Source: Deltaproteobacteria bacterium (GTDB taxonomy: Bacteria > Desulfobacterota > Desulfuromonadia > Desulfuromonadales > JAAYDE01). Taken from it: 64,000 nt of DNA. The position numbers were made by a program, and so were the translations under genes. The stretch covers positions 1 through 64,000 of the forward strand of contig JAFGRU010000027.1 of NCBI GenBank assembly GCA_016934985.1, given 5' to 3'. This document shows positions 43,474-64,000 of the stretch, piece by piece (the stretch's first letter is position 1; each line of letters starts with the position of its first letter). Below the pieces are notes generated by a model. It saw only the letters and a program-made list of their open reading frames with translations, did not search any database and was not told the DNA's origin.

Positions 43474-43480
43474 ATAGAGG

Positions 43481-44704: not shown

Positions 44705-44709
44705 AAATA

Positions 44710-47411: not shown

Positions 47412-47658
47412 GCAGGAAGTGATTGAGTTGATTGATTCAAGCCTTGCGGAAGAATTCGAGCTTGAACGTGCCGATATGATTCCCGAGGCGAATCTTTATG
47501 AAGACCTGGGCCTGGACAGCCTGGATACGGTCGATATGGTGATTGTTCTGGAGAGTGCTTTCAATTTTAAAATTCGTGAAGAAGAAGCGGTTCGTGAAAT
47601 CCGCACCCTTGGAGACATTCACCGTTTTGTTCTGAGTAAAGTCGAACAACATTCATAA
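47404..47658 (+). CDS. Acyl carrier protein, 84 aa
   Basis: A small acidic helical protein with the phosphopantetheine site at Ser39 in DLGLDSLDTVDMV. It carries the aryl starter and the growing polyene chain as thioesters. The ATG overlaps the stop of the preceding ketosynthase. It is the only ACP visible in the window, whereas described aryl polyene clusters have two; the second may lie to the right of the edge. Confidence 0.95.
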   Translation: MTEQEVIELIDSSLAEEFELERADMIPEANLYEDLGLDSLDTVDMVIVLESAFNFKIREEEAVREIRTLGDIHRFVLSKVEQHS

Positions 47659-47675
47659 AAACCAGGGACGTATCG

Positions 47676-49789: not shown

Positions 49790-49790
49790 T

Positions 49791-51380
49791 ATGGCTGAAA
49801 AAGAAACGGTTGTTCTAAATGGATGTGATCTGACCATTGACGATATTGTAGCCATTGGTGTCGGTGACAAGCAGGTCGCCCTGGATCCGCAGGCTGTTGA
49901 ACGTTGCCTGGCAAGTCGTCGCTTTCTCGAAGAGGAAATCGCCGCGAAAAGGGTTATTTACGGGGTCAACACCTCCTTTGGGCCCATGTGCAACAAGATC
50001 ATTGATGATCAGCAGATAGAGGCTTTGCAGGTCAATCTGATCCGCAGTCATGCCGCCGGCCTTGGTGATCCCCTCAAGGACTACATTGCCATTGCTGTGA
50101 TGGCCGTGCGTTTGAACACTCTTGTTAAAGGATTCAGCGGCGTACGGATCGAACTCCTTGAACATTTGCAGTGGCTTGTCAATCAGCGGGTTGCCGCCTA
50201 TATCCCTGAGATAGGGAGTGTTGGTGCATCTGGAGACCTCGTTCACCTGGCCCATCTGGCTCTGGCCGTTATCGGAGAGGGTAAGCTTTATTATCGCGGT
50301 GAATTGCGTGATGCAGAAGCCGTTTATAATGAACTCGGGCGGGGGCCGATGATGCTGAGCTTCAAGGAAGGCATTGCCCTCATGAATGGGACCAGTGCGA
50401 TGACGGCACTGGCGGCATTCGCTATTTTCGGGGCTCGGAAATTACTGAATATTGCTTGTTTGACCGGTGCATTTGCCATGGAAATCTTCGGAGGGATAGA
50501 CGATGCCTTCGATGAGGACCTTCATCTGGTCAAGCCGCATCAAGGTCAGGTGGCTGTGGCCAAGACGATTCGGAAGCTTTTCCAGGGCTCGGGGAATATC
50601 ACCCTGCGTTCCGAAATGCATGATTTGATACGCAAACAAAAGTCGGATGAACCGGTCTTTGAAACCAGTATCAATGTGCAGGATGTCTACTCGGTTCGGT
50701 GTACTCCGCAGGTCCTGGCGCCTGTCGCCGAATCGATTGGTCTGGCGGAGAAGGTTGTGGAGACCGAAGCCAATTCTTCCAATGACAACCCGATCGTTAT
50801 TCCGGAAAAGAAAAAAATTATTCATGGAGGCAATTTTCACGGCCAGAGCATTGGTTTTATCATGGATACTCTCTGCATGGCTGTAACCACTTTATGCAAT
50901 CTGTCGGAACGGCGTATCAACAAGTTCCTTGACCGGAATCTCAATGAAGGTTTGCCGGAATTTCTCATCCCCGGTCCCGTGGGTCTGACCATGGGTTTCA
51001 TGGGGGCGCAGTACCTGGCGACATCAGCTACCGCCGAGAACCGTCAGTTGGCTAACCCCGTCAGTACCAATTCCATCAGTTGCAATGCTTCCAATCAGGA
51101 TGTCGTCAGCATGGGAACGGTTGCGGCGAGAAAAGCCTTTAAATCTGTGAGCCTTGCCAAACATATTGTTACTCTGGAGATTCTTGCCGATTTGCAGGCC
51201 CTGGCGTTTCGAAATGCCGATAAGCTCGGGTACGCCACCGGAAAAATTTATCGGATTCTGAATCAGGATTTCTCCGTTTATGACAATCGGAGAATTTTTC
51301 ATGACGATCTGGTGATTTTCCGGAAGCTTCTTTTCTCCAGTCAGCTGTTTGATGATTTGTCAATCTACTGGGATGAGTAA
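49791..51380 (+). CDS. Aromatic amino acid ammonia lyase, probably tyrosine ammonia lyase
   Basis: A member of the MIO-dependent lyase family: the Ala-Ser-Gly triad that cyclises to MIO is residues 146-148 (VGASGDL). Tyr57 (YGVNTSFGP) and other active-site residues are present (SSNDNPIV, HGGNFHGQ). The selectivity position reads NLIRSHAAG (Ser86-His87), as in histidine lyases and also in the flexirubin tyrosine ammonia lyase of Flavobacterium. Histidine-degradation genes are absent, and an aryl-acid ligase adjoins directly. Together these favour deamination of tyrosine to 4-coumarate as starter for the polyene. Start ATG 49791, 529 residues. Histidine or phenylalanine as substrate remains possible. 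Confidence 0.87.
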   Translation: MAEKETVVLNGCDLTIDDIVAIGVGDKQVALDPQAVERCLASRRFLEEEIAAKRVIYGVNTSFGPMCNKIIDDQQIEALQVNLIRSHAAGLGDPLKDYIAIAVMAVRLNTLVKGFSGVRIELLEHLQWLVNQRVAAYIPEIGSVGASGDLVHLAHLALAVIGEGKLYYRGELRDAEAVYNELGRGPMMLSFKEGIALMNGTSAMTALAAFAIFGARKLLNIACLTGAFAMEIFGGIDDAFDEDLHLVKPHQGQVAVAKTIRKLFQGSGNITLRSEMHDLIRKQKSDEPVFETSINVQDVYSVRCTPQVLAPVAESIGLAEKVVETEANSSNDNPIVIPEKKKIIHGGNFHGQSIGFIMDTLCMAVTTLCNLSERRINKFLDRNLNEGLPEFLIPGPVGLTMGFMGAQYLATSATAENRQLANPVSTNSISCNASNQDVVSMGTVAARKAFKSVSLAKHIVTLEILADLQALAFRNADKLGYATGKIYRILNQDFSVYDNRRIFHDDLVIFRKLLFSSQLFDDLSIYWDE

Positions 51381-51805
51381 TGTCGGAGTTGACCCTTCCA
51401 ATGAATGCCGAAGAGCTGATGCCTCATCGCCTGCCGATGCGTCTCGTCGACCAGGTGTTTGAGGTTGAAGATGGCAAAGGAGTCATCAAGGCGCTTGTCC
51501 GGAGCGACTGCTTTCTGGTTGATGAGGCGGGCCGGTTGGAAGATAGTGCCCTGATCGAGCTTCTTGCTCAAAGCTTTGCAGCCTTGAAGGGTTATCGTGA
51601 TCGCAGAGATGGAAAGCCGGTCCGGCAGGGTTTTCTAGTCGGAATCAAGAATTTTGCCCGGCTGAAGAGTGTGCAGGCCGGAGATCTTTTGCGGATTGAA
51701 ATATGTACAATTGCTGAGCTGAACGATTTCGCTGTCGCAGATGGGAAAATCTGGTGCGACAGCGAGCTGTTCGCCCATGGTGAAATCAAGGTTTGGATAA
51801 AATAA
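51380..51805 (+). CDS. Hotdog dehydratase subunit (ApeP-like), 141 aa
   Basis: Single hotdog domain with the FabA/FabZ opening LMPHRLPMRLVDQV (residues 13-26) and Glu60 in DSALIELLAQSFAALKGYR on the central helix, where FabZ has its catalytic acid. The HFPG loop with the catalytic His of FabZ is absent. It probably dehydrates 3-hydroxyacyl-ACP together with the second hotdog protein encoded at 55492, which shows the reverse pattern. Its ATG overlaps the stop of the ammonia-lyase gene by one base. Confidence 0.85.
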   Translation: MSELTLPMNAEELMPHRLPMRLVDQVFEVEDGKGVIKALVRSDCFLVDEAGRLEDSALIELLAQSFAALKGYRDRRDGKPVRQGFLVGIKNFARLKSVQAGDLLRIEICTIAELNDFAVADGKIWCDSELFAHGEIKVWIK

Positions 51806-51807
51806 AA

Positions 51808-52452
51808 ATGTTGAAGACCAGCTTGTCAGCCGCAATATCCTTGATTTTGTTTATGGTTGCTCCGGCGCTTTGTTGTGCGGAATCAACGGACCTGAAATCG
51901 TTGCTGAATGAGTTGAAGATTGCTTCTGCCCAAACCCGGACTCTTTCAAGCCGGTTTGTTCAGGAAAAAAATCTGGCGATTTTTTCGGAAAAGCTGCTTT
52001 CACAGGGCCGTTTCGTTTTTCAAAGTCCCGACAGCCTTCGCTGGGAGCTGTTGACTCCCGTGGCTAGCGGTTTTGTCCTGCGTGGTTCGCGAGGTGAACG
52101 TTGGAATAGCCTCAACCGGGAGTTGGAGCGTTTTTCCGTGAAAGACAACCCCATCATGGGCATTGTCGCCCAGCAGCTTCTGGCCTGGGCGCGGGTTGAT
52201 CTTGACTGGCTGGAAAAACGCTATCATATGGAGTTGATAACTCTTAATCCGGCAAGGTTGCGTCTGATGCCCCTGGACCCTGGAGAGGCCGGTTTCATCG
52301 ACTATTTACAAATTCTGTTTGCCGATAATCGCCGCCATGTCGACGAGGTGTTGCTGATGGAAAAGGGAGGAGACAGCACCCTGCTTCGCTTTACCGATGT
52401 TCAGCTCAACATCGAGCTGCCTGAAAATATCTTTTCTCCGCCGGAATTCTGA
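51808..52452 (+). CDS. LolA-like periplasmic lipid carrier of the cluster
   Basis: ATG 51808 lies 2 bases after the preceding stop. A signal peptide (SAAISLILFMVAPALCCAES) is followed by about 190 residues of the LolA/LolB-like half-barrel (SRFVQEKNLAIFSEKLLSQG, SPDSLRWELLTPVASGFVLR, VDEVLLMEKGGDSTLLRFT). In aryl polyene clusters a protein of this fold ferries the lipid through the periplasm to the outer membrane. It is directly followed by the MMPL exporter and the lipoprotein, so the three form an export module. Confidence 0.9.
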   Translation: MLKTSLSAAISLILFMVAPALCCAESTDLKSLLNELKIASAQTRTLSSRFVQEKNLAIFSEKLLSQGRFVFQSPDSLRWELLTPVASGFVLRGSRGERWNSLNRELERFSVKDNPIMGIVAQQLLAWARVDLDWLEKRYHMELITLNPARLRLMPLDPGEAGFIDYLQILFADNRRHVDEVLLMEKGGDSTLLRFTDVQLNIELPENIFSPPEF

Positions 52453-54824
52453 TGAAGCTGTTTGCTGCCTGCTATACCGGGTTGCAGAAGCGACGACGAT
52501 GGTTGGTTCTGTTATTGTTGCTGCTTGCAGTCGGAAGCGTCTGGAATTTGTCGCGACTCAAAATTGAAGAAAGTATCGTTGCGATGCTGCCGGATGGGAA
52601 ATCCCGGGCGGCTAAAGATTTTGAGTTATTGACCAAGGCCCCATTTGCCCGAAAACTGATCATTCATCTTCGAGCTGCTCCCGGGGCCGGAGTTGAAGGA
52701 CTACTGGCCGCTACTGATCGGCTTCGGGCTTCACTGCCAGGCGAATTATTCAGCAATCCTGTCAGTGGCCCGAAAGATATGGGGACCTCCGCGCTCATGA
52801 GTGAGTTGGGAGATTATATGCCATTGTTGCTGGACAGAAAAGAACTCCAGCAGATCGCAGACCAGTTGAATCCAGAGAGTGTCGATGCCAGCCTTGCCGC
52901 GGACGTGACTCAGCTTCTTCAGCCGCAGGGCATTGCTCTAAAAAATAAAATCCGACGTGATCCCCTTGATTTGCAGCGCTTTGCCCTGCAAAAGCTGCGT
53001 TTTTTGAATCCCTTCCCTGGCATAAGGGTCGATAAAGGCCATTTTCTCAGCAGGGACGGGCGAAGCAGTCTGATCCTGGCCGATACTCCGGTATTGATGA
53101 CCGATGCGGCCGGCGGCAGGAAGCTGCTGGATGCTTTCCACCGCGCCCAAGGGCAGCTGCCTGCAGGAATCAGCGCTGAGTTGCTTAGCGGTCATCCGTA
53201 TACGGTGGCCAATGCCGAAACGATTCAGGGCGATCTGCGGGTGGTTCTGCTGGCATCCGCCGTCGGTATTCTCGTGGTGTTTGTGGTCTTTCTGCGCAGC
53301 CTGAGGGCTCTGCCGGTTTTTCTGCTGCCTTTGTTCAGTATGGCAGCCGCTTTGGTGATGGTGTCTCTGTGGTTTGACAAGCTTTCCGGAATTACCATCG
53401 GTTTCGGGGCGGTGCTGCTGGGCATAACCATTGATTTTGGCTTGCATGTTTATTTTGCCCTTCAGCTTGGCGATAATTCCCGTCCCCAGCTTCTGCAGGC
53501 GGTTTCACGACCGGTTTTGTTCGGTGGTTTGACCACCCTGGCGGCTTTTTCCGTTCTGTTGCGTTCGGAATTGCCGGGCCAAAGGCAGTTGGCGGTTTTT
53601 GCCATAGCCGGAATCACGGCTGCCCTGTTGCTGGCGTTGCTGGTTCTCCCCCACTTTATCGGCAAAAGGGAAGAGAACACCGGCTTGGGGAGGGCGAACA
53701 ACCCCGCCTCGCTCTATACCCGCAGGCCGGGGTTGCGTTGGTTCGTGCTGTTGTCCTGGGTCGGCATTGCCGGATTTTGCGCTTTTGCGGCGCAAGGACT
53801 TAGGATCAATGGGGAATTGCGTCAGCTTGGTTATATGCCGCAAGAGTTGCAGAAAGCCGAAAAAAGACTGGCCGAAGTCTGGGGGGGTGGACGCAACCGG
53901 GCGCTGGTCTTTGCCTCAGCCGCTGATTTGGATATGGCCCTGCAACGCAATGAGCAGGTGTGGCAAAGTCTCGTTGAGCATAAAGTTCAGGATGAATCGG
54001 TCAGCCTTGCTCCGTTGCTTGCCTCCAGGCAGACAAAGCGGCAAAGGGTTGATGACTGGCAAGTTTTCTGGCGTGAGCGGCGTGAAACCACAGAGGATCT
54101 GATACGTGCCGGTGGGCAAAAGTACGGTTTTTCATCAGATGCGTTTTCCCCCTTTTTTTCAGGCCTGGATAACCCTCCGAAGGACCTCGACATTGAGACT
54201 TTGCAACGCTGGGGGCTGGGGAGGTTGTTGGACAATCTGCTGCTGAAGGACAATAACAGCTATCAGCTGGTGAGCCTTGTTCCCGATCGACCGGAACTGA
54301 TCAGCCGTCTTGAATCTGAGCTGGCAACTTTGCCGGGCGTGACCCTGGTTTCCCAGACCCGCTTCGGTAAAGAGCTCAGCAGGGAAATTGGTATTGATTT
54401 CAGCCGTTTCATTATTTTTGCCGGACTTGGCGTGGTGCTTCTGTTGCTGGTCCTTTTCCGGCGCCTGCCGGAAGTTTTTCTGGCTTTGCTGCCGGTTGTC
54501 ACCGGGTTGGTGGTCATGTTCGGTGCCATGACCTGGATGGGGCTCGAATTGAATCTGTTCAACGGCGTGGCTTCCATCCTGATTATCGGTTTAGGGGTCG
54601 ATTACGGTATTTTTATGGTTTGTCATGACCGGCATAAGGAATATCTGGCTTCGTCCCGGGCCATTATTGTATCCGGTCTGACCACGCTGGTTGGTTTCGG
54701 GGCCCTGGTGCTTGCCAGGCATCCGGCCCTGCATTCCATCGGCCTGACGGTATTGCTGGGTATCAGTGCTTCAGTACCGACAGCGGTGCTCGTTATCCCT
54801 GCGTTTCAGAAGAAAGCCGGCTGA
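52452..54824 (+). CDS. MMPL/RND-type exporter of the aryl polyene lipid
   Basis: A 790-residue inner-membrane transporter with the RND superfamily two-fold repeat: one span near the N-terminus (WLVLLLLLLAVGSVW), a large periplasmic loop (about 40-255), five spans (about 260-400), then the same again. The proton-relay helices carry ITIGFGAVLLGITIDFGLHV and ILIIGLGVDYGIFMVCHD, typical of MMPL/SSD-like exporters. It likely lifts the finished aryl-polyene lipid out of the inner membrane to the LolA-like carrier. Its start overlaps the LolA-like stop (TGATG). Confidence 0.93.
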   Translation: MKLFAACYTGLQKRRRWLVLLLLLLAVGSVWNLSRLKIEESIVAMLPDGKSRAAKDFELLTKAPFARKLIIHLRAAPGAGVEGLLAATDRLRASLPGELFSNPVSGPKDMGTSALMSELGDYMPLLLDRKELQQIADQLNPESVDASLAADVTQLLQPQGIALKNKIRRDPLDLQRFALQKLRFLNPFPGIRVDKGHFLSRDGRSSLILADTPVLMTDAAGGRKLLDAFHRAQGQLPAGISAELLSGHPYTVANAETIQGDLRVVLLASAVGILVVFVVFLRSLRALPVFLLPLFSMAAALVMVSLWFDKLSGITIGFGAVLLGITIDFGLHVYFALQLGDNSRPQLLQAVSRPVLFGGLTTLAAFSVLLRSELPGQRQLAVFAIAGITAALLLALLVLPHFIGKREENTGLGRANNPASLYTRRPGLRWFVLLSWVGIAGFCAFAAQGLRINGELRQLGYMPQELQKAEKRLAEVWGGGRNRALVFASAADLDMALQRNEQVWQSLVEHKVQDESVSLAPLLASRQTKRQRVDDWQVFWRERRETTEDLIRAGGQKYGFSSDAFSPFFSGLDNPPKDLDIETLQRWGLGRLLDNLLLKDNNSYQLVSLVPDRPELISRLESELATLPGVTLVSQTRFGKELSREIGIDFSRFIIFAGLGVVLLLLVLFRRLPEVFLALLPVVTGLVVMFGAMTWMGLELNLFNGVASILIIGLGVDYGIFMVCHDRHKEYLASSRAIIVSGLTTLVGFGALVLARHPALHSIGLTVLLGISASVPTAVLVIPAFQKKAG

Positions 54825-54826
54825 CG

Positions 54827-55495
54827 ATGGGCAACCTTGTTTTTTTATTACTGACGCTTATTGCACTTCAGGGCTGTGTCCTGACGACGCCGCCTCTGAA
54901 GCTGGAAGAAAATTGCCGGACCGCTTTCCCTGGGCCGGAATTGGCCGAAAACCAGTGGCTGGCGCAGGATAAAACCTGGCGGCTTCGGCAGGCGGCATTG
55001 CTGGAGATCGGACCCAGGGAAATCCCTCTGGAGGGATTTCTGAGGCTTGATCTCAAAAACCGGGAGGCCCGCCTGGTGGCGATGAATGAACTGGGGCTTG
55101 TGCTGTTTGACCTGCAGGTCAGCATTTCAGATGAAAAATTGCAGCGGGTGGTCCCGCAGCTTCGAAAAAGGAAAGAACTGGCCAAGGGGATAGGACAGAG
55201 CTTACGGCGGATATTCCTCCTGCCGCGACCCCGGCCCGGCGATCAGTTGGAGAATTTTGCCAACAGCCAAAGGCTTTGGCGATCAGTTCCAGATGGACGG
55301 CTGCAGTTCGTTTTTGACTGTTCAGGTGATTTGCGGGAAACCCGGAAGAAGACCAACTCGGAAAACTGGCGCGTCTTATATGACAGCTACCGGTTGATGG
55401 AAAATTCGCGGCTTCCCATGAAAATTGTGATGAATGATTATCGACGCAACGTCAAACTGTCAATCTGGTTACATGAGGCGAAAACGGAATTATGA
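54827..55495 (+). CDS. DUF3261-type outer-membrane lipoprotein
   Basis: A short signal peptide with lipobox LQGC (Cys17) predicts a lipoprotein. Residues about 50-120 (WRLRQAALLEIGPREIPLEG, NELGLVLFDLQVS) follow the DUF3261 pattern, a family found next to MMPL and LolA-like genes in aryl polyene clusters. It presumably receives the lipid at the outer membrane. The start is 2 bases after the exporter stop, and its own stop overlaps the next gene (ATGA). Confidence 0.88.
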   Translation: MGNLVFLLLTLIALQGCVLTTPPLKLEENCRTAFPGPELAENQWLAQDKTWRLRQAALLEIGPREIPLEGFLRLDLKNREARLVAMNELGLVLFDLQVSISDEKLQRVVPQLRKRKELAKGIGQSLRRIFLLPRPRPGDQLENFANSQRLWRSVPDGRLQFVFDCSGDLRETRKKTNSENWRVLYDSYRLMENSRLPMKIVMNDYRRNVKLSIWLHEAKTEL

Positions 55496-55866
55496 ACAGC
55501 ATGCGTGAAGCCATCATCCGTGGAACTCTCAGCGGGCCTTCTGTGACTGCCGAAAGTGGCGAACAATGCTTTTGTTTCGACCACTCGTTTATAGGATTTG
55601 ACGGCCATTTCCCGGGGTATCCGATTTTGCCGGCGATTCTGCAGACGCTCATGGCACAGATTCTGGCTGAGGAGGTTGTCGGGGCGCCACTTCAACTGGT
55701 TGCCCTGAAACGGGCTAAATTCACCCGGCAATTGCGGCCAGGGGAAAAAATCAAGGTCAGGTTGAGTTGCCGGAAAGAGGGTATGGAGCTGCATTGTCCG
55801 GTGCAACTGTTGGTTGCTGATGAAACCGCTTCCAGTTTTACCCTGGTTTTTGGAGAAGCAGAATGA
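55492..55866 (+). CDS. Hotdog dehydratase subunit (ApeI-like), 124 aa
   Basis: FabZ-like hotdog domain with the catalytic His39 in FDGHFPGYPILPAILQ. The helix that should carry the catalytic Glu/Asp reads AILQTLMAQ with no acidic residue. It therefore probably cannot dehydrate alone and would need the Glu-bearing partner encoded at 51380. I recall reported APE dehydratases being heteromeric, which fits. The start overlaps the lipoprotein stop by 4 bases and its stop overlaps the thioesterase start, so coupling is tight. ATG 55501 is an alternative start. Confidence 0.85.
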   Translation: MNSMREAIIRGTLSGPSVTAESGEQCFCFDHSFIGFDGHFPGYPILPAILQTLMAQILAEEVVGAPLQLVALKRAKFTRQLRPGEKIKVRLSCRKEGMELHCPVQLLVADETASSFTLVFGEAE

Positions 55867-56324
55867 GAAAACCGTATTTCCGAATTCAGGAGGGTGTACC
55901 ACAGCCTTTGCGCTGCACGGTTGAACGGGTTGTCCGCTTCGAGGAGGTCGATGCGCTTGGTATTGTCTGGCACGGTCGTTACCCCAGTTATTTCGAAGAC
56001 GGGCGGGTGCTGCTTGGAGAAAAATACGGCCTTGGTTATATGGATTTCTACCATCAGGGCGTAGTGACGCCGATCAAGCAGATGCATATCGATTATAATT
56101 TGCCATTGCGATTCGGTGATCCATTTACCATTGAGGCGATCCTGCACTGGACGGATGCGACCCGGCTTAACCATGAGTTTATTCTGCGCAATGCTGCCGG
56201 GGAAATTACCACTACCGGTTATTCGGTGCAACTCCTGATGGATCAACAGCAGAATGTACTTGTGGTGGCGCCACCGTTTTTCGAGGATTTCCGCCAGCGC
56301 TGGCAAGCCGGGGATCTGTCATGA
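55863..56324 (+). CDS. 4HBT hotdog thioesterase (ApeK-like), 153 aa
   Basis: The pattern VRFEEVDALGIVWHGRYPSYFEDGR contains the catalytic Asp30 of YbgC/4-hydroxybenzoyl-CoA thioesterases. MHIDYNLPLRFGDPFTIEA is the conserved second strand. It would release the aryl polyene carboxylic acid from ACP, or edit misloaded ACP. Four-base overlaps with both neighbours. Confidence 0.9.
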   Translation: MRKPYFRIQEGVPQPLRCTVERVVRFEEVDALGIVWHGRYPSYFEDGRVLLGEKYGLGYMDFYHQGVVTPIKQMHIDYNLPLRFGDPFTIEAILHWTDATRLNHEFILRNAAGEITTTGYSVQLLMDQQQNVLVVAPPFFEDFRQRWQAGDLS

Positions 56325-57451
56325 GCCGCGTGGTTTTAACCCGGATCGCGACGGTCACTGCCCTTGGGGATGGCCTTGGAACGCTTTGGCAGGGCTTGCT
56401 GGCCGGGCAAAGCGGCATTGCGCCAATCAAGCGATTTGACTGCAACAATTACCTGTCCGGTCTGGGGGCCTGCATCGATGGACTGGCAACGCCAACCGAG
56501 GGTTCTCTGCTGGATGCCGTTCTTGACCGGGTTGTCAATGAGATGGGGGAGGTGCCCCCTGATTGCCGCCTGCTGGTCGCTTCAACCAAGGGTGAAATTG
56601 ATCGCCTCGAAAATGCCTGCAGACGTGGAGAAAAAATCCCTCAGGCAGTGCTGTTCGAGCCGCTGCTGGAGAAGATCGCCCGGCGTTTCAAGCTGTCCGG
56701 CCGGGGTATGAACATAAACGCCGCCTGTGCGTCCTCGACCATTGCCCTGATAAAGGGGGCATCGTTGATTTCAGGAGGTCATGCTGAAATGGTGCTGGTT
56801 TTAGGCCTCGATATCCTGAGCGAGTTTGTCTTTTCCGGTTTTTCAGCTTTACAGGCGCTTTCGCCCGATGCCTGCCGCCCTTTTGATTGCCACCGCAACG
56901 GGCTGACTCTGGGAGAGGCCGGTGTCGCACTTTTGCTGATGAGCGAGGAACGGGCCAGGCAGAGCGGTGAAATACCGATGGCGTTTGTTGCGGGCTGGGG
57001 AGCGGCTAATGATGCACATCACGTCACAGCTCCTGCCCGTGATGCCAATGGCCTGATTTTATCCATTCGGCAGGCTTTGAAAAAGGCGGATGTCGGGGTG
57101 GACAGGGTCGCTGCCATCAATGCCCATGGCACCGGAACGGTCTATAACGACGCAATGGAACTGAAGGCTTTCAAGGCAATCTTTGGCAACGGGCTGCCTC
57201 CTGTTCACGGGGTCAAGGGCAGCCTGGGGCATTGCCTGGGCGCTTCAGGAGGGGTCGAGATCGGGATCGCGTGCCGGGCTTTACAGGAACAGAAAATTCC
57301 CGGCACGATTGGCTGCTGGGAAGCGGAAGACGAAGCGCAGGGCATGATCGGCGCTTCGGCGCAGTCCATCGATGGCGAATACCTGCTCTGCTGCAACTCG
57401 GGTTTTGGCGGGGTCAACGGTGCGGTGCTACTGCGGAAAGGGGATTCATGA
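56321..57451 (+). CDS. Beta-ketoacyl-ACP synthase III of cluster (KS partner, ApeO-like)
   Basis: A 376-residue thiolase-fold condensing enzyme with Cys136 in NAACASSTIAL, His269 in INAHGTGTVYND, Lys299 and His304 in GVKGSLGHCLGA. It lies immediately before, and overlaps by 4 bases, a cysteine-less ketosynthase-like gene. That is the arrangement of KS/chain-length-factor pairs in type II polyketide and aryl polyene systems (ApeO/ApeC). It is therefore the likely elongating enzyme that builds the polyene. Confidence 0.92.
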   Translation: MSRVVLTRIATVTALGDGLGTLWQGLLAGQSGIAPIKRFDCNNYLSGLGACIDGLATPTEGSLLDAVLDRVVNEMGEVPPDCRLLVASTKGEIDRLENACRRGEKIPQAVLFEPLLEKIARRFKLSGRGMNINAACASSTIALIKGASLISGGHAEMVLVLGLDILSEFVFSGFSALQALSPDACRPFDCHRNGLTLGEAGVALLLMSEERARQSGEIPMAFVAGWGAANDAHHVTAPARDANGLILSIRQALKKADVGVDRVAAINAHGTGTVYNDAMELKAFKAIFGNGLPPVHGVKGSLGHCLGASGGVEIGIACRALQEQKIPGTIGCWEAEDEAQGMIGASAQSIDGEYLLCCNSGFGGVNGAVLLRKGDS

Positions 57452-58221
57452 GGGCCTGGATCAATGGTGTCGGCTGGATGACTCCCGCAGGCTGCGGCAT
57501 GGGCCGGGCAGGCAGCGAACAGCCCCTCTGTGCCGGACAACTGGATATCCCCACCCGCGCCCAGGTTTTTGAGGAACCGGACAAGCGTTTCGGGCGGCTC
57601 GACCCTTTTTCCCGGGTCGGTCTTGCCGCTGTGGCATTCTGCCTGCGTGACGCCGGAGAGGAACACTGGACGGAAAAGCGGCCTATCGGAATTGTCGCTT
57701 CCAGTCGTTACGGCTGCCTTGGAACAGATGTGGCTTATCTGGAGACCATGCTCCCCGATGGCGGCAAGCTGGCCAGCCCGAATCTCTTTGCCTACACTCT
57801 GCCGAACTGTTTCCTTGGTGAAGCGGCGCTCCGTTTTGGCCTGACGGGGAACAGTCTTCTCCTTAATCAGAAAGACGATAACGGTTTGTGCGCCGTACGC
57901 TTTGCTATGGAAGAATTGTCCTGGAGCGGGCAGCAGGGAGTACTGGCCGGTTTTTGCGACCTGCCGTTTTCAGAGATGGGGTTGGAGGTGGATTTCCCCG
58001 GCAGCCTTTTCTTTTTACTTGGGCGGGAGCCGGATGCTCGTGGCGTGACTTACGGGGAACTCAGGCTTTCCGGTGACCAACTGTTTTTTAAAGACAAAGT
58101 TGTCCCGGATTTTTCAGCCCTGGTGAAGGCTTGTCTAGGAGCCCATTTCATCAACAGATTCCCAGGCAATAAATTTCAGGGAAAACCGGCATGCCGGGAC
58201 AAGGAAGCGGTAAAAAGATGA
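57448..58221 (+). CDS. Chain-length-factor-like truncated ketosynthase (ApeC-like), 257 aa
   Basis: ATG 57448 overlaps the KS stop. Only the N-terminal thiolase half is present (about 250 residues against about 400 in full KS). At the nucleophile position the sequence is LLLNQKDDNGLCAVRFA (about 137-152), so Asp/Gln residues replace the catalytic Cys, and no HAHGTGT or GHxxGA block follows. Such inactive partners form heterodimers with the active KS and set chain length. ApeC of aryl polyene clusters has this form. Its stop overlaps the first radical-SAM gene. Confidence 0.87.
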   Translation: MRAWINGVGWMTPAGCGMGRAGSEQPLCAGQLDIPTRAQVFEEPDKRFGRLDPFSRVGLAAVAFCLRDAGEEHWTEKRPIGIVASSRYGCLGTDVAYLETMLPDGGKLASPNLFAYTLPNCFLGEAALRFGLTGNSLLLNQKDDNGLCAVRFAMEELSWSGQQGVLAGFCDLPFSEMGLEVDFPGSLFFLLGREPDARGVTYGELRLSGDQLFFKDKVVPDFSALVKACLGAHFINRFPGNKFQGKPACRDKEAVKR

Positions 58222-59477
58222 AAATGAATTTAATTTACCCTCGGTGGCCGAAACTTGATCGCCAGACCGAGTTTCACCTGCCTCCTCATGGACCAGCGGT
58301 TTTTGCCGCAGCCATCCCGGATGAGGTTGAGGTTGAATTTACGGATGAGAATCTGCAGCCGGTCAATTTTTCCGCAGATTGCGATCTGGTTGCCATTTCA
58401 ACCATGCTGACCTCGCAATTGCCCCGTGCTTTCGAAATTGCCCGGGAGTTTCGTGAACGCGGCAGGAAAGTCCTCTTCGGTGGCATATCAACGATGTTGC
58501 ATTCGGAAGAGGTGATGCAACATGCCGACGCGGTCTTTCTCGGCGAGGTCGAGGGGCGTTTCGGGCAGGTGGTGGAAGATTTCAAGCGCGGCGAACTGAA
58601 GCCGGTCTACAACTACATGAACAATCCCCCTGACACCAACCTCATTGGCACCGCCCGGCGGGAAATTCTCAACCGTGAGTTGTACAATTATCGCGGCGTC
58701 CAGATGCTCGACCTGGTGCACGCTTCACGAGGCTGTAAATTCAACTGCTTTCCCTGTTGCACCGGGTTTCTCGGGGGGCATAAGTTCCGTCCCCGCCCCA
58801 TTGACAAAGTCATTGAGGAGATGGCCGCCATCCAGAATAATCGGCTTTTCATTGTTGATAATTCACTGGCCCAGGATCGTCAATGGTTGATCGATCTGTT
58901 TACCGCCATGGCCCCTTTGAAAAAAAAGTTTGTTTCCCACCCGATTCTTGATGATGACGAAGTTCTCGAACGGGCTTCCGAGGCCGGCGCCTGGTATGTC
59001 TACCAGGCTGTATTTGATACCTCCGATGTGATACGCGACCGTGTTAAAAGGCTTAAGGATCACGGCATCGGTGTGGAAGGGACCATTATCCTGGGAACCG
59101 ACGATCAGAGCGAAAACGATATCAAGCGCCTGGTTGATTTTCTGCTGGATATCGAGCTGGACGTTGCCGAGTTTACCATCATGACCCCTTTCCCTCATTC
59201 ACCGATACGCCGGCAAATGGAGTTGCAGGGGCGAATTCTGACCAATGACTGGCTGAAGTATACCGCGGACAAGGTGGTCTTCCAGCCGAAAAAGATGAGC
59301 CCGGATAAGTTGCAGGAGCTTTATTATTATGCCTGGGATACTTTTTATGCCGACAGTGGTCATCAGTTGAAAATGGGAGAATTGTTCAAAAAGATTATCC
59401 GGCGGGAAATGGATGACGGCACTTATCATCGCTACAACCCGCGTAAACGCAGGGTATTCAAAAAGGCTCAGCCGTGA
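58218..59477 (+). CDS. Radical SAM enzyme 1 of the cluster, cobalamin-type N-terminal domain, 419 aa
   Basis: ATG 58218 overlaps the preceding stop. Residues 1-130 have a Rossmann-like B12-binding shape (EVEFTDENLQ, DLVAISTMLTSQLPRAFEIA, KVLFGGISTMLH, AVFLGEVEGRF), without the cobalamin-ligating His, which is common for this class. The 4Fe-4S motif is Cys173-x3-Cys177-x2-Cys180 (RGCKFNCFPC). The C-terminal half has YQAVFDTSDVIRDRVKRLKD and FTIMTPFPHSP as in tRNA/lipid-type class B radical SAM enzymes. The substrate is unknown; context points to a methylation, C-C bond formation or rearrangement on the aryl-polyene lipid. Confidence 0.88.
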   Translation: MKMNLIYPRWPKLDRQTEFHLPPHGPAVFAAAIPDEVEVEFTDENLQPVNFSADCDLVAISTMLTSQLPRAFEIAREFRERGRKVLFGGISTMLHSEEVMQHADAVFLGEVEGRFGQVVEDFKRGELKPVYNYMNNPPDTNLIGTARREILNRELYNYRGVQMLDLVHASRGCKFNCFPCCTGFLGGHKFRPRPIDKVIEEMAAIQNNRLFIVDNSLAQDRQWLIDLFTAMAPLKKKFVSHPILDDDEVLERASEAGAWYVYQAVFDTSDVIRDRVKRLKDHGIGVEGTIILGTDDQSENDIKRLVDFLLDIELDVAEFTIMTPFPHSPIRRQMELQGRILTNDWLKYTADKVVFQPKKMSPDKLQELYYYAWDTFYADSGHQLKMGELFKKIIRREMDDGTYHRYNPRKRRVFKKAQP

Positions 59478-60823
59478 GTCGGATTTTTCTGATTTCCAGC
59501 AATAAACACACGGACCCCTATCCGGTTTACCCCTTGGGGATGGCTGTGGTGGCTCGTGCACTGGAGGCTACCGGGCATTCGGTAAAGCAGTTTGATTGTC
59601 TGGTGCAGGGTGATTCCTTTGAGGAGTTGCGGCCCGCCATCGAAGCGTTCTCCCCCGACTTCCTGGCGATATCCATCCGCAATATCGACGATGTGGACTC
59701 GTTCAGCGGGGAGGCCGGCTGGTACCTTGGCCAGGTGAAAAATCTTATCGACAATCTTCGGAATATCTCTTCGGCTCGGGTCATCATTGGCGGACCGGGG
59801 TTGACCATCATGCCTGAGACCATAACCGATTATCTCGGTGCCGACCATGCCGTGGTCGGCGAGGGGGAAAAACGCCTGCCCGAGCTGATTGCCGCCCTTG
59901 GAGCTGGAAATCCCGCTGCCAGGGTAATTGAGCGGCAAACCCCACTGGAAGGGAATGATTTCAGTGCTCCCCTCTACGTAGCGGAACTGGTCGAGTATTA
60001 CCAAAAAAACAGTGGCATGGTAAACCTGCAGACCAAGCGCGGATGTTCCTATCACTGTAATTATTGTTCTTATCCTTATCTGGAAGGAAAACGCTTCAGG
60101 GTCCGTGATCCCCGCATGGTGGTGGCTGAACTTCGACAATTGAAGAGTGATCATGGCGTGCGGCGGCTTTTTTTTACGGATTCCGTTTTCAACGATCCTC
60201 AGGACCGTTATCTGGAGCTGGTTGAGGAGCTGATTCGTGCCGATTTGGATCTGCAGTGGACGGCATTTTTTCGTCCTCAAGGCTTTGGACGGTCGGAACT
60301 GGGCTTGATGAAAAGAGCCGGTTTATATGCTTTGGAGTTGGGTCCTGATGCCGCGAGCGACCGAACATTAGAGGGCATTGACAAAAGACTCACTTTCTCC
60401 GAGGTGCTGGAGGTTAACCGGGCCTGTCTGGAAGAGTGGCTGCCGGCGGCACATTATGTCATTTTTGGCGGCCCCGGGGAAAACCAGGAGACCTTGGCGG
60501 AGGGGCTGGCGAACCTTCGCGAACTTGGTCCTTCGGTTGTCTTCGCTTTCTCCGGGATCCGGATTCATCCCGGAACTGCCTTGCAGAAGATAGCTGTTGA
60601 GGACGGAGTAATTACAGCGGAGACATCGTTGTTAAAACCGGTTTATTATTTTTCGCCTCAAATTGATCACCGCCTGATGGAGGCCGCCATTAAAAGAGAC
60701 TTCTCCGGAAAAGCCAATCGTCTTTTCCCTCCGTCTGAAGCTTTGGAGCGGATGGCGGTTATGAAAGATTTTGGCTATCGCGGTTTGATGTGGGACAAAC
60801 TGGTACGTTTCCCAAAAAAATAA
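59474..60823 (+). CDS. Radical SAM enzyme 2, lipid-biosynthesis B12-binding type, 449 aa
   Basis: GTG start overlapping the stop of radical SAM enzyme 1 (GTGA). Residues about 1-140 form the B12-binding domain (YPLGMAVVARALEATGHSVK, DFLAISIRNIDDVDS, VIIGGPGLTIMP, AVVGEGEKRLPEL). The cluster motif is Cys191-x3-Cys195-x2-Cys198 (RGCSYHCNYCSYP). The rest has YALELGPDAASDRTLEGIDK and HYVIFGGPGENQET. From memory it resembles the 'lipid biosynthesis B12-binding/radical SAM protein' family seen in proposed ladderane clusters of anammox bacteria; a profile search would be needed to confirm that. Confidence 0.87.
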   Translation: MSRIFLISSNKHTDPYPVYPLGMAVVARALEATGHSVKQFDCLVQGDSFEELRPAIEAFSPDFLAISIRNIDDVDSFSGEAGWYLGQVKNLIDNLRNISSARVIIGGPGLTIMPETITDYLGADHAVVGEGEKRLPELIAALGAGNPAARVIERQTPLEGNDFSAPLYVAELVEYYQKNSGMVNLQTKRGCSYHCNYCSYPYLEGKRFRVRDPRMVVAELRQLKSDHGVRRLFFTDSVFNDPQDRYLELVEELIRADLDLQWTAFFRPQGFGRSELGLMKRAGLYALELGPDAASDRTLEGIDKRLTFSEVLEVNRACLEEWLPAAHYVIFGGPGENQETLAEGLANLRELGPSVVFAFSGIRIHPGTALQKIAVEDGVITAETSLLKPVYYFSPQIDHRLMEAAIKRDFSGKANRLFPPSEALERMAVMKDFGYRGLMWDKLVRFPKK

Positions 60824-61051
60824 CGAAACTTTTCAGCACCAGGACTTGTATCGCCCATGGAGAGGGCATCTGCCGCCCGGAGGGCGGCAGCTAAGCCCCA
60901 TGGATGGGTTCACGCGGCCCTTGGAATAGGCGATGTGAGGCCTCGTGCCGACATGCTGAACAATTTCAAAATGACCAGGCTGTTTGACACGTTTAAAGGC
61001 TCTTGGTGTTCAGCTTTGGGGCAGGCTCGGTTTGATTTTTGGTTTTTTTGA
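60824..61051 (+). other. Intercistronic gap with GC-rich hairpin
   Basis: This 228-base gap breaks an otherwise overlapping operon. It holds a perfect hairpin, CTGCCGCCC (60870-60878), loop GGA, GGGCGGCAG (60882-60890), flanked by two CCATGG palindromes (about 60855 and 60898). No T-run follows, so it is not a standard terminator. It may be an extragenic palindromic repeat or a processing site that separates the last part of the operon. The T-rich stretch before 61052 may contain a secondary promoter. Confidence 0.5.
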
Positions 61052-62503
61052 ATGAATAAAATTAATGAAAAAAATATTCTCCTGGTCCACCCGCTGGGTT
61101 ATCAGGTCGAAGCGGCGAGCCGTGATATTTCACGCAAGGCCAATATCATGCCGCCATTGGGGTTGGCCAGTATCGCAGCCTACCTCGACCGGGCCGGGTT
61201 CTGCCCTTATATCCTCGATTGTTATGCTCACCCGAATGCGGATGGCCGGTTGTGCGATTTGCTGAAAAGCCTTCGCCCCGCCCTGGTAGGTTTCAGTTGC
61301 ACGACGGCGAGTTTTCACGATGCCCTGCGTCAGGCGCACAGGGTTAAACAGGAACTCCCACAGAGCCGGGTTGTGTTCGGCGGGCCGCACGTTTCTGCCT
61401 TAAAAGAGAAAATCCTCGAATTTTCCAAAGCGATTGATTTTGTCGTTATCGGTGAGGGGGAGCAGACCATGTTGGAACTTGCGCAATCCGGTGGTGAAGA
61501 ACCGGCCGGGGTTGCCGGCCTGGTCTGGCGGGCGGCTGACGGCAGTATTGTCAATAACGGTTACCGCCGGGAGGCTCTGGTGCTCGATGATCTCCCTTTC
61601 CCTGCTTATGAAAAACTGGCCGGATACCCGGATGCTTACAAACTCCCGATCTTTAACTATCCTAAAATCCCCAACAGCAGTTGTATTTCCAGCCGCGGTT
61701 GCCCCTACAGCTGCAGTTATTGTGACCGCAGCGTTTTCAGGTCCACCTTTCGCTATAATTCAGCCGACTATTTATATCGGCACCTGCATTATCTTCATGA
61801 ACGGTTCGGCATCCGGCATATCAATTTTTATGACGACCAGTTCACTTTCCATCGCGGGCGGGTGGAGGAGTTTTGCCGACTTCTCATGGACCGCCCACTG
61901 GGGATGACCTTCAATTGTGCCGTGCGTGCTGAGCATGTTGATCGGGAACTGCTGCAGCTCATGAAAGCGGCCGGCTGCTGGATGGTGAGCCTGGGTATCG
62001 AAAGCGGGGATGAACAGCTGCTTTCCCGGCACCGGCAGAATGCCGACCTTGAGCGGCTTGCTGAGACTATTCGTACCATCAAATCGTGCGGAATCCGGAC
62101 CAAGGGGCTGCTTATGATGGGCTTGCCGGGAGAGACCCGGGCATCGATACATCGCAGCATGAAATATGTTTTTTCTCTGCCGATTGATGATTTCAACCTG
62201 GCCAAATTCACGCCGTTTCCCGGTTCGCCGATTTATGAGAATATCGACCGGTTCGGCAGTTTTGAAGAAGATTGGCAAAAAATGGACTGTATGCACTTCC
62301 AGTTTGTGCCCCAGGGCATGGAGAAGGAGCAGATGGAGAAGCTGTTTATCAAATTTTATAGAAGGCATTTTATGCGCAACCGGGTACTGTTCGGCTATTT
62401 GACCATGCTTTGGAAATCGCCCGACAGCTGGCGGCGCTTTGCTGCTGATGTAGGTCAGTTTTTGAGGTTTGCCTTTACCAACAAACGTTATGGCGGGGCC
62501 TGA
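61052..62503 (+). CDS. Radical SAM enzyme 3, cobalamin-type, 483 aa
   Basis: ATG 61052 follows a T-run without a clear ribosome site. The N-terminal B12-binding domain (residues 8-150) has MPPLGLASIAAYLDRAGFCP, VVFGGPHVSALKE and FVVIGEGEQTMLEL, the features of cobalamin-dependent radical SAM enzymes. The cluster motif is Cys217-x3-Cys221-x2-Cys224 (RGCPYSCSYCDRS). It is followed by INFYDDQFTFHRGRVEEFCR, WMVSLGIESGDEQLL and TKGLLMMGLPGETRASI. The pattern is that of HpnJ/BchE-type class B enzymes acting on lipids or pigments. The substrate is unknown. Confidence 0.88.
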   Translation: MNKINEKNILLVHPLGYQVEAASRDISRKANIMPPLGLASIAAYLDRAGFCPYILDCYAHPNADGRLCDLLKSLRPALVGFSCTTASFHDALRQAHRVKQELPQSRVVFGGPHVSALKEKILEFSKAIDFVVIGEGEQTMLELAQSGGEEPAGVAGLVWRAADGSIVNNGYRREALVLDDLPFPAYEKLAGYPDAYKLPIFNYPKIPNSSCISSRGCPYSCSYCDRSVFRSTFRYNSADYLYRHLHYLHERFGIRHINFYDDQFTFHRGRVEEFCRLLMDRPLGMTFNCAVRAEHVDRELLQLMKAAGCWMVSLGIESGDEQLLSRHRQNADLERLAETIRTIKSCGIRTKGLLMMGLPGETRASIHRSMKYVFSLPIDDFNLAKFTPFPGSPIYENIDRFGSFEEDWQKMDCMHFQFVPQGMEKEQMEKLFIKFYRRHFMRNRVLFGYLTMLWKSPDSWRRFAADVGQFLRFAFTNKRYGGA

Positions 62504-62826: not shown

Positions 62827-64000
62827 ATGGACGAGCGGATTAAAGTCATAGTCGCCATTCCGGTATATAACCATGCAGGAACCATTCGGCAGGTTGCTGA
62901 GGGTGTTTTGCGTCATTATGGCCAGGTACTTGTGGTCGATGACGGTAGCGCTGAACCTGTTGCTCCCCTGCTTGAGGATCTTGCCGTTGAAGTGCTGGCG
63001 CATTCCCGAAATAAAGGGAAGGGGGCGGCCATTCGGTCAGCAGCGGCCTGGGCGTTGGAACATGGTTATACGCACATGATCTGCCTTGATGCGGATGGCC
63101 AGCATGATCCGAATGATTTGCCGGTTTTTTTTAGTGAAATTGCCCAACACCCGAAAGCGTTAATTGTCGGCCACCGGGATTTTTCGCATGAATCGGTCCC
63201 CGGGTCCTCACGTTTCGGGCGGAAGTTTTCCAATTTCTGGCTGCGGCTTCAGACCGGAATCCGGCTCAAAGACTGCCAGAGTGGTTTTCGTGCCTATCCG
63301 CTCTTTGTTTTCGAACATCTAAGTTTCTGGACGCGAAAGTACAATTTCGAGATTGAAGTGCTGGTTCGCTCGGCCTGGGCGGGAGTGGAGTTGCGGGATG
63401 TCGATATCTCGGTCTATTATCCTTGCGGTGAAGAACGGATTTCGCACTTCCGCCTTTTCATGGATAATTGGCGTCTGACGATGCTCAATACCCATTTGAC
63501 ATTGCGCTCGGTCGTTCCTTGGCCGCACCGCAAAATTATTGAGAGGGAATCCTCTGACAAGAAATCTGTCCAAACGGTTTCGGTCGTGCATCCTATGCGT
63601 TCAATCCGCCAGCTCCTCAGGGAAAACAGCTCTCCGGAACGTTTGGCGGTCGCGGCCGGCGTCGGGGTTTTGCTCGGCACTTTGCCCCTGGTCTTCTGCC
63701 ATACGGTAGTTATTCTGTTCGTCTGCGGCTTTTTCAATTTGAACAAAGTCGCAGCGGTCAGCAGCAGCCAGTTCTGTATGCCGCCGGTTGTCCCGGCGCT
63801 CTGCATTGAGCTTGGCTATTACCTGCGTCATGGCGAGTGGCTGACAGAGTTGTCACTGCAGACCCTCGGCTATCAGGCCCCACAGCGGTTTTTTGAATGG
63901 ATTATCGGTTCACTGGTGCTGGCCCCCCTGTTGGCTGTGGTGGTTTGGGCACTTACCCTGTTTCTGGCTTTGATAATTGTGAAAAAAGATGAACAAACCG
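62827..64000 (+). CDS. GT2 glycosyltransferase - DUF2062 membrane fusion (3' end outside window)
   Basis: The frame is open from ATG 62827 to the right edge (391 codons). Residues about 5-210 form a GT-A family 2 domain of the dolichyl-phosphate-mannose-synthase type (KVIVAIPVYNHAGTIRQVAE, VVDDGS, ICLDADGQHDP with the DxD metal site, KDCQSGFRAY). Residues about 255-390 match DUF2062 (LAVAAGVGVLLGTLPLVFCH, several membrane spans, SSQFCMPPVVPALCIELGYY). Glycosyltransferases with this tail occur in aryl polyene clusters and in lipid-linked sugar synthesis. It may glycosylate the polyene lipid or make its headgroup. More domains could follow beyond the edge. Confidence 0.87.
   Translation, partial: MDERIKVIVAIPVYNHAGTIRQVAEGVLRHYGQVLVVDDGSAEPVAPLLEDLAVEVLAHSRNKGKGAAIRSAAAWALEHGYTHMICLDADGQHDPNDLPVFFSEIAQHPKALIVGHRDFSHESVPGSSRFGRKFSNFWLRLQTGIRLKDCQSGFRAYPLFVFEHLSFWTRKYNFEIEVLVRSAWAGVELRDVDISVYYPCGEERISHFRLFMDNWRLTMLNTHLTLRSVVPWPHRKIIERESSDKKSVQTVSVVHPMRSIRQLLRENSSPERLAVAAGVGVLLGTLPLVFCHTVVILFVCGFFNLNKVAAVSSSQFCMPPVVPALCIELGYYLRHGEWLTELSLQTLGYQAPQRFFEWIIGSLVLAPLLAVVVWALTLFLALIIVKKDEQT

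Follow-up and report, generated by a model that had tools for sequence, protein, structure and literature searches.

Flexirubin-type pigments, in which an aromatic polyene is joined to a resorcinol lipid, carry a ring methyl group that derives from methionine (PMC3992019). The flexirubin cluster of Chitinophaga/Flavobacterium (flxA-flxY, darAB; PMC3992019) resembles the locus analysed here in its TAL-type ammonia-lyase, PaaK-like 4-coumarate ligase and DarB, and in its several ketosynthases (KS), ketoreductase (KR), dehydratase (DH), acyl carrier protein (ACP), acyltransferase, LolA, glycosyltransferase (GT) and exporter. The arcuflavin cluster of Azoarcus BH72, a xanthomonadin-dialkylresorcinol hybrid (PMC3949708), shares with our locus a KS with an N-terminal-only KS partner (ArcK/ArcJ), acyltransferases, a GT, LolA, an exporter and an AMP ligase, as well as darB accompanied by a BtrH-like protein, an ABC transporter, an ACP and a KS (PMC3949708). 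The clusters proposed for ladderane formation in Kuenenia and Desulfotalea (PMC2649909, PMC4790861), where that role is unproven, are similar in combining a TIGR04072 member, PCL, a CrtI-like protein, non-canonical KS, GT, KR and ACP in one block.

The present locus comes from an anaerobe of the Desulfuromonas kind. We lean towards the view that the locus is an anaerobic flexirubin/arcuflavin-like aryl-polyene-dialkylresorcinol cluster, whose radical SAM enzymes tailor its lipid. It differs from the flexirubin cluster in its four B12-type radical SAM enzymes, its DarB-rSAM4 operon, its anaerobic hosts and the sub-cut-off scores of its Flx homologues, and neither DarA nor an ordinary SAM methyltransferase was recognised in the block. 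Whereas Azoarcus employs a chorismatase, a halogenase, a methyltransferase and DarA, an ammonia-lyase and radical SAM enzymes are found here. No earlier description of a flexirubin-like cluster with B12 radical SAM enzymes was found in the openly accessible literature; one may still exist.

Gene content of the cluster

The cluster genes located in the window (the whole stretch of 64,000 nucleotides that was analysed) are as follows.

42745..43473, + strand, ketoreductase, FabG/FlxB-like SDR; FlxB_rubin_SDR 303.1 bits (cut-off 340), FabG NF004200 296.3 (273)
43481..44704, + strand, ketosynthase KS1; catalytic Cys-His-His present
44710..46185, + strand, CrtI/CrtD-like flavin oxidoreductase; highest NCBIfam score 73 bits with CrtD (cut-off 550), 66.1 with Pfam Amino_oxidase
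46176..47411, + strand, ketosynthase KS2; catalytic Cys-His-His present
47404..47658, + strand, acyl carrier protein; ORF with DSL motif, kept in relatives
47676..48473, + strand, phospholipid/glycerol acyltransferase-like protein
48473..49789, + strand, FlxY/PaaK-like aryl-acid AMP/CoA ligase; NCBIfam FlxY 460.6 bits (cut-off 520)
49791..51380, + strand, MIO-type aromatic amino acid ammonia-lyase; HAL 493/524, FlxA TAL 459/700
51380..51805, + strand, FabZ-like dehydratase
51808..52452, + strand, LolA-like carrier; LolA2_flexi 88.2 bits (cut-off 125), Pfam LolA
52452..54824, + strand, MMPL/RND-type exporter
54827..55495, + strand, small lipoprotein-like protein without Pfam match; its conserved position is that of the lipoprotein of aryl-polyene clusters
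55492..55866, + strand, small protein at the dehydratase position, which is conserved; no family match
55863..56324, + strand, hotdog thioesterase; YbgC/FadM family, 52 bits
56321..57451, + strand, ketosynthase KS3; catalytic residues present
57448..58221, + strand, ketosynthase KS4, truncated and lacking the catalytic Cys/His; Pfam ketoacyl-synt N 28.4 bits
58218..59477, + strand, rSAM1, 419 aa; radical SAM enzyme with Rossmann-like N-domain, from an unnamed, highly conserved family
59474..60823, + strand, rSAM2, 449 aa; B12-binding radical SAM enzyme, TIGR04072 member
61052..62503, + strand, rSAM3, 483 aa; B12-binding radical SAM enzyme, closest to HpnJ/BchE
62827..63999, + strand, family 2 glycosyltransferase with C-terminal DUF2062; extends a few nt beyond the window, conserved beside rSAM2/rSAM3

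The original prediction had named CrtI-like, KS, ACP and DH genes, all of which were found. In the alignment, the RSH and NQDVVSMG segments of the ammonia-lyase match tyrosine aminomutase 2rjr, and the enzyme is probably tyrosine-specific. All of the flexirubin equivalogs stayed under their cut-offs (FlxA 459/700, FlxB 303/340, FlxY 461/520, LolA2 88/125), although FlxY, FlxB and LolA2 came close to theirs, and therefore these models do not class the cluster as a flexirubin one; the flexirubin LolB model NF053540 gave no match.

Three tandem radical SAM enzymes

The three tandem radical SAM genes predicted at 58218-62503 were confirmed as ORFs. rSAM2 starts with GTG and overlaps the rSAM1 stop by 4 nt, and a gap of 228 nt separates rSAM2 from rSAM3. 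All three enzymes carry the CxxxCxxC motif exactly at the predicted residues (Cys173/177/180 in rSAM1, Cys191/195/198 in rSAM2 and Cys217/221/224 in rSAM3), and because each pair is only 22-25% identical they are, as claimed, not close copies of one another. The expected Rossmann-like N-terminal domain was recovered in rSAM1 by an AlphaFold model and in rSAM2 and rSAM3 by Pfam. The description "B12-binding" holds for rSAM2 and rSAM3, whose family scores exceed the gathering thresholds, but rSAM1 reaches only a sub-threshold score. Among loci from named genomes, rSAM1 lies immediately 5′ of rSAM2 in 59 of 68, and rSAM3 lies immediately 3′ of rSAM2 in 34 of 76 loci; this gene neighbourhood is far from chance.

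The middle enzyme had been likened to the "lipid biosynthesis B12-binding/radical SAM" family, and rSAM2 indeed matches TIGR04072 (rSAM_ladder_B12) over its full length (residues 3-445) with 656.6 bits against a cut-off of 360, with Pfam scores of 68.4 bits for B12-binding (gathering 32.1) and 67.7 for Radical_SAM (gathering 29.5). Its closest families are methylases. The next best is BzaD, the benzimidazole lower-ligand enzyme (201 bits), followed by TsrM, the tryptophan C2 methylase (135 bits), but rSAM2 is far under both equivalog cut-offs (450 and 500, respectively). TsrM is the best PDB match of rSAM2 both by profile and by fold, and is the top structural match (6wte, TM 0.83) of the predicted rSAM2 model (pLDDT 90.7). 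The position of the cobalt-facing, lower axial Arg69 of TsrM is occupied by Arg in 135 of 136 rSAM2 homologues and by Lys in the remaining one, whereas that of Glu273, which blocks the unique iron in TsrM, holds V/I/F in all 136. The absence of Glu273 means that the TsrM mechanism is not transferable whole, and a full TsrM mechanism for rSAM2 was discarded. Sequence and model together suggest that rSAM2 is most likely a C-methylase acting on an sp2 carbon of the aryl ring or the polyene.

rSAM1 falls slightly under both Pfam thresholds (B12-binding 29.9 bits, gathering 32.1; Radical_SAM 25.0, gathering 29.5) and reaches no cut-off among the curated NCBIfam families (TIGR04072 45.1 bits, cut-off 360). 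Its AlphaFold model (pLDDT 88.5) combines the N-terminal Rossmann-like domain with a radical SAM fold and matches AprD4 best (6fd2, TM 0.77), followed by MgmA, TsrM and CysS. rSAM1 sequences from about eight phyla share 57-87% identity. Of the cluster genes that are widely shared, rSAM1 is the most strongly conserved among those compared, and it normally adjoins rSAM2; about 42 of the 53 rSAM1-bearing genomes of the source phylum also have TIGR04072 above cut-off. For rSAM3, the Pfam scores are 80.5 bits for B12-binding (gathering 32.1) and 90.7 for Radical_SAM (gathering 29.5), and the top NCBIfam scores are those of HpnJ (189 bits, cut-off 578) and BchE (167 bits, cut-off 481); no curated family cut-off was reached (TIGR04072 107.7 bits, cut-off 360).

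These matches bear on a tentative alternative, in which the cluster still makes an aryl-polyene/dialkylresorcinol lipid and only rSAM2 and rSAM4, a fourth enzyme described below, methylate, while rSAM3 and perhaps rSAM1 carry out oxidation, dehydration or ring closure. Both HpnJ and BchE are non-methylating families, and AprD4 is a radical SAM diol dehydratase. However, P-methyltransferase families also score 147-149 bits with rSAM3, neither rSAM1 nor rSAM3 reaches any family cut-off, and fold matches at 15-17% identity, with 16-17% in the comparison with AprD4, do not fix the reaction.

The dar genes and conservation of the cluster

The cluster runs on past the window end on the same contig, where the dar genes are located. 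A StlD/DarB-family ketosynthase scores 580.6 bits there (cut-off 450), DarH 470.5 (cut-off 300) and the DarG family 139.3 (cut-off 70). rSAM4, the fourth radical SAM enzyme of the whole cluster, lies 5 nt 5′ of darB downstream of the window, and the two genes form an operon. No DarA annotation was found among the neighbours of plasmid DarB genes. The catalytic Cys-His-His is retained in KS1, KS2, KS3 and KS5, whereas the Cys is lost in KS4 and KS6, and the ketosynthases form two active/inactive, KSalpha/KSbeta-like pairs; judged by its sequence, KS4 may be an ArcJ/chain-length-factor-like partner of KS3. The aryl-polyene-derived lipid of the original prediction is supported, and is sharpened to a flexirubin/arcuflavin-like one by DarB, DarG-DarH and the Flx-like genes.

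In order-level relatives, 25-30 genes are syntenic. The ammonia-lyase is absent from many otherwise syntenic clusters and present in 3 of the 14 loci with both flanks, so that the substrate of rSAM1 and rSAM2 need not be a tyrosine-derived ring; a strict link between rSAM1/2 and the ammonia-lyase was discarded for the same reason. At two loci (L145 and L161), rSAM2 directly follows the ammonia-lyase gene, without rSAM1 or the exporter.

It is improbable that the locus is a plain aryl-polyene carboxylic acid cluster of the APE/xanthomonadin type, with a different DarB product and no true dialkylresorcinol. That no DarA-like gene was recognised beside DarB is consistent with this reading, as are the many relatives that carry the polyene module without the darB part and the score of 494 bits for the DarB-specific model NF053539, under its cut-off of 550. 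Against it, the scores for the StlD/DarB subfamily, for DarH and for the DarG family all reach their cut-offs, and the Desulfuromonas group has kept darB and rSAM4 as a pair.

Relation to ladderane clusters

Less probable still is a product of the ladderane type, or another polycyclic lipid, in which the concatenated rings arise from a polyene acyl chain folded by the radical SAM enzymes; such a route has been proposed for anammox bacteria. rSAM2 belongs to TIGR04072, and a 2026 preprint places a "ladderane synthase" with non-methylating Cbl radical SAM enzymes (PMC13142503). In the genome taken as Kuenenia (G516), whose hydrazine synthase alpha aligns with 5c2v across 782 residues without visible mismatch, a TIGR04072 member (440 bits) is clustered with PCL, CrtI-like, MMPL, KS pairs, KR, ACP, GT and a distant rSAM1, in agreement with the gene list of kuste3335-3352 (PMC4790861). 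This cluster nevertheless differs from ours in lacking the tight rSAM1-rSAM2 pair and in having ordinary SAM methyltransferases, and neither an ammonia-lyase nor DarB was seen in it.

The distribution of the family argues against the ladderane link. TIGR04072 is above cut-off in only 5 of the 21 hydrazine-synthase genomes that make up the anammox set, and is missing from three single-contig anammox genomes (G550, G645 and G676), whose hydrazine synthase alpha is 80-89% identical to the others; in the source phylum it is above cut-off in 84 of 395 genomes. In the tree, the anammox members fall outside the window clade A (split support 95/98), and rSAM2 does not group with the Kuenenia cluster member. 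Desulfotalea has a syntenic cluster, yet makes no ladderanes (PMC2649909), E. coli with six Kuenenia candidates (kuste3603-3608) formed none (PMC4790861), and heterologous production from candidate genes was reported as unsuccessful (PMC9821293). DarB and DarH indicate resorcinols. Both the distribution in anammox genomes and the sequence tree weaken the ladderane reading, and decoration of the lipid by rSAM1-3 is more likely than the building of ladder-shaped lipids. Of the original interpretation, the family, the gene makeup and the aryl-polyene lipid are supported, but the ladderane link is not.

Equally doubtful is the proposal that rSAM1 and rSAM3 are radical SAM enzymes of a new, ring-forming kind, which would close carbon rings on the ACP-bound aryl polyene; were it true, anaerobes of many phyla would make an undescribed cyclised resorcinol-linked membrane lipid. 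A housekeeping role as MiaB/RimO methylthiotransferases was discarded, as an HMM search gave rSAM1-3 at most 29.6 bits against a cut-off of 251 and placed them as distinct enzymes outside these families.

Proposed pathway and implications

From the gene content, conservation, folds and motifs established here, we infer the product and every reaction of the flexirubin/arcuflavin-like pathway. The ammonia-lyase would generate an aryl-acrylic acid, probably 4-coumarate from tyrosine, which the FlxY-like ligase would activate and KS, KR, DH and ACP, with the two KSalpha/KSbeta-like pairs, would extend to an aryl polyene. The DarB-family ketosynthase would form a dialkylresorcinol precursor by condensing two acyl units, DarG-DarH and the acyltransferases might join and anchor the polyene and resorcinol parts, and the LolA-like and MMPL proteins would deliver the lipid to the outer membrane. 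Besides the putative C-methylation by rSAM2, rSAM1 may make a second obligatory change to the polyene/aryl chain, rSAM3 may perform an accessory, HpnJ/BchE-like step, and rSAM4 would act on the resorcinol half.

Our analysis reassigns a cluster with a ladderane-labelled radical SAM family to a pigment-lipid pathway that is testable and found in culturable organisms. It indicates that TIGR04072 by itself is a poor ladderane marker, and also draws attention to the unnamed rSAM1 family, whose link with this pathway is almost strict in anaerobes from about eight phyla. Since the Desulfuromonas group is culturable, the chemistry is directly checkable. If the proposed pathway is right, B12-type (cobalamin-type) radical SAM enzymes of anaerobes would replace the SAM methyltransferase, halogenase and DarA of the aerobic flexirubin/arcuflavin makers.

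Organization and family placement of the radical SAM genes

The window spans bases 1-64000 of a contig that is 84.7 kb long and belongs to a 3.58-Mb draft genome. The cluster genes are listed below; the downstream part lies partly outside the window, in locus L009 (contig 60000-79990).

58218-59477: rSAM1
59474-60823: rSAM2
61052-62503: rSAM3
42745-58221, upstream block, first part: KR, two KS, CrtI-like flavoprotein, ACP, acyltransferase
42745-58221, middle: FlxY/PaaK-like ligase, MIO ammonia-lyase, dehydratase, LolA-like protein, MMPL exporter
42745-58221, end: lipoprotein-like protein, thioesterase, KS3, truncated KS4
L009, first part: glycosyltransferase-DUF2062, lipid A-type acyltransferase, ACP, KS5-KS6, PagL
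L009, second part: DarG-DarH fusion, ABC transporter genes, another ACP
L009:13986-16435 (contig 73985-76434), opposite strand: rSAM4, then StlD/DarB-family ketosynthase

rSAM1 and rSAM2 overlap by 4 nt, and a 228-nt gap (60824-61051), the site of a strong hairpin with perfect pairing (CTGCCGCCC-GGA-GGGCGGCAG), separates rSAM2 from rSAM3. The cysteine motifs were found at the residues stated beforehand (Cys173/177/180, Cys191/195/198 and Cys217/221/224), and the three proteins, described there as not close copies, share 22-25% pairwise identity. The proposed placement of rSAM2 in TIGR04072, the "lipid biosynthesis B12-binding/radical SAM" family, was borne out by a full-length match (656.6 bits; cut-off 360), the next families, BzaD (201 bits) and tryptophan C2-methyltransferase (135), both falling below cut-off. 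In the same profile search, no family cut-off was reached by rSAM3 (nearest HpnJ, 189 bits, and BchE, 167) or rSAM1 (top score 53.7 bits). Both Pfam domains, B12-binding and Radical_SAM, scored above the gathering threshold in rSAM2 and rSAM3; rSAM1 fell slightly short of it for both. AlphaFold models showed a two-domain fold for rSAM2 (pLDDT 90.7; structural match TsrM, TM 0.83) and rSAM1 (pLDDT 88.5), the latter matching AprD4 first (TM 0.77), then MgmA, TsrM and CysS. With this fold and the AprD4 match, the rSAM1 model has the architecture of a B12-type radical SAM enzyme, with putative cobalamin binding. The window rSAM2 clusters with Desulfuromusa and Desulfuromonadaceae genomes. Elsewhere in the same genome (G000:C122:4691-6668), a second TIGR04072-like paralogue (298 bits, below cut-off) lies beside another radical SAM gene.

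Conservation of the gene pair and its cluster

The cluster is real and well conserved. A 25-30-gene block is syntenic in same-order relatives. Of 80 genome loci, 68 extend far enough upstream of rSAM2 to show its neighbour, which is rSAM1 in 59; the gene immediately downstream is rSAM3 in 34 of 76. The rSAM1-rSAM2 pair was seen in Desulfobacterota, Nitrospirota, Omnitrophota, Lentisphaerota, Verrucomicrobiota, Kiritimatiellales, Planctomycetota and Hydrogenedentes. In one set of 60 loci, rSAM1 had a median identity to the window protein of 67% (range 57-87), against 45% for rSAM2, 49% for KS5, 47% for the glycosyltransferase and 35% for the exporter. Where a locus carried them, rSAM3 and the ammonia-lyase reached 66% and 75%; these loci are fewer and nearer than those of rSAM1. 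Within the window's phylum, rSAM1 orthologues occur in 53 of 395 genomes, and about 42 of these 53 carry an over-cut-off TIGR04072 member, versus about 42 of the 342 others.

Predicted reactions and substrate

In TsrM, Arg69 shields cobalamin on its lower face, and Glu273 prevents AdoMet from binding to the cluster (PMC8992657, PMC13331322). Among 136 rSAM2 homologues, 135 have Arg and one has Lys where TsrM has Arg69; in place of Glu273, all have V, I or F. These residues suggest that rSAM2 shares the cobalt environment of TsrM but, lacking its Glu273, can probably still cleave AdoMet. Since BzaD and TsrM are its nearest relatives, rSAM2 would most likely transfer methyl to an sp2 carbon. The families nearest to rSAM3, HpnJ and BchE, are non-methylating, so rSAM3 could catalyse an oxidative or ring-forming step.

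Among solved structures, the ammonia-lyase aligned best with a tyrosine aminomutase, with which it has the RSH and NQDVVSMG segments in common; the Gln in NQDVVSMG is a TAL/PAL trait, Glu standing there in HAL. A HAL-like first motif combined with a TAL/PAL-like second is reported for FlxA of the flexirubin cluster, whose tyrosine ammonia-lyase activity is proven. Judged by the structural match, the FlxA motif pattern and this Gln, tyrosine is the likely substrate. The gene is optional, being absent from many related clusters; rSAM1 and rSAM2 therefore need not act on the tyrosine-derived ring. At two loci (L145:8360-11338 and L161:3076-6037), in a different KS/ACP/dehydratase cluster, an ammonia-lyase gene directly precedes rSAM2 and rSAM1 is absent, which hints at an aryl unit as the substrate of rSAM2.

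The proposed ladderane link

The original prediction also tied rSAM2 to ladderane clusters, and this part was weakened. Hydrazine synthase alpha of the right length was present in 21 Planctomycetota genomes, several of them drafts, and five of these 21 had TIGR04072 over cut-off; hydrazine synthase was 80-99% mutually identical in the seven genomes whose full-length protein was read. The hydrazine synthase alpha of G516 agrees with PDB 5c2v, a Kuenenia structure, over 782 residues with no visible mismatch, which identifies G516 as Kuenenia. In G516 and G686, the over-cut-off member lies inside a polyene-type cluster (PCL, CrtI-like, MMPL, KS pairs, ACP, GT) agreeing with the kuste3335-3352 gene list. 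Three single-contig anammox genomes (G550, G645, G676) had no over-cut-off member, just a stand-alone homologue (323-329 bits) with no lipid cluster around it in the stretch read; about 20 kb from it, G550 encodes a KS and a distant homologue of rSAM1. A maximum-likelihood tree, rooted with some uncertainty owing to its long outgroups, split the window type (45 rows) from the separate anammox-containing clades with support 95/98. Ladderane production is general in anammox bacteria, yet the enzyme is missing from several, so it is unlikely to be a general ladderane ring-former; the ladderane label for the cluster is weakly supported. A well-supported TIGR04072-like clade (about 305-340 bits) occurs in most anammox genomes (L184-L191, L200-L202, L212), with no lipid cluster around its members in the stretches read.

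The surrounding cluster

The predicted CrtI-like, KS, ACP and DH genes are all encoded within 42745-58221. Just upstream, the protein at 39565-40827 presumably resembles KpsS/LipB-type capsule export proteins. Cys-His-His is retained in KS1, KS2, KS3 and KS5, and the catalytic Cys is absent from KS4 and KS6, the pattern of KSalpha/KSbeta pairs. Family cut-offs were reached for DarB (580.6 bits; cut-off 450), DarH (470.5; 300) and DarG (139.3; 70); matches to FlxA, FlxB, FlxY and LolA2_flexi were all below cut-off. The B12-binding radical SAM protein rSAM4, nearest to hopanoid methylase HpnR (175 bits; cut-off 650), forms a two-gene operon with the StlD/DarB-family ketosynthase (5-nt gap), a pair kept in Desulfuromonas-group relatives. 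In G325 and G401 neighbourhoods (L055-L058), the rSAM1-to-rSAM4/darB half is present without the upstream polyene half, which suggests a two-module construction of the cluster. The gene set matches the one described for flexirubin (PMC3992019) and arcuflavin (PMC3949708) clusters. The locus is a flexirubin/arcuflavin-like cluster carrying B12-type radical SAM enzymes, its product and reactions being predicted.
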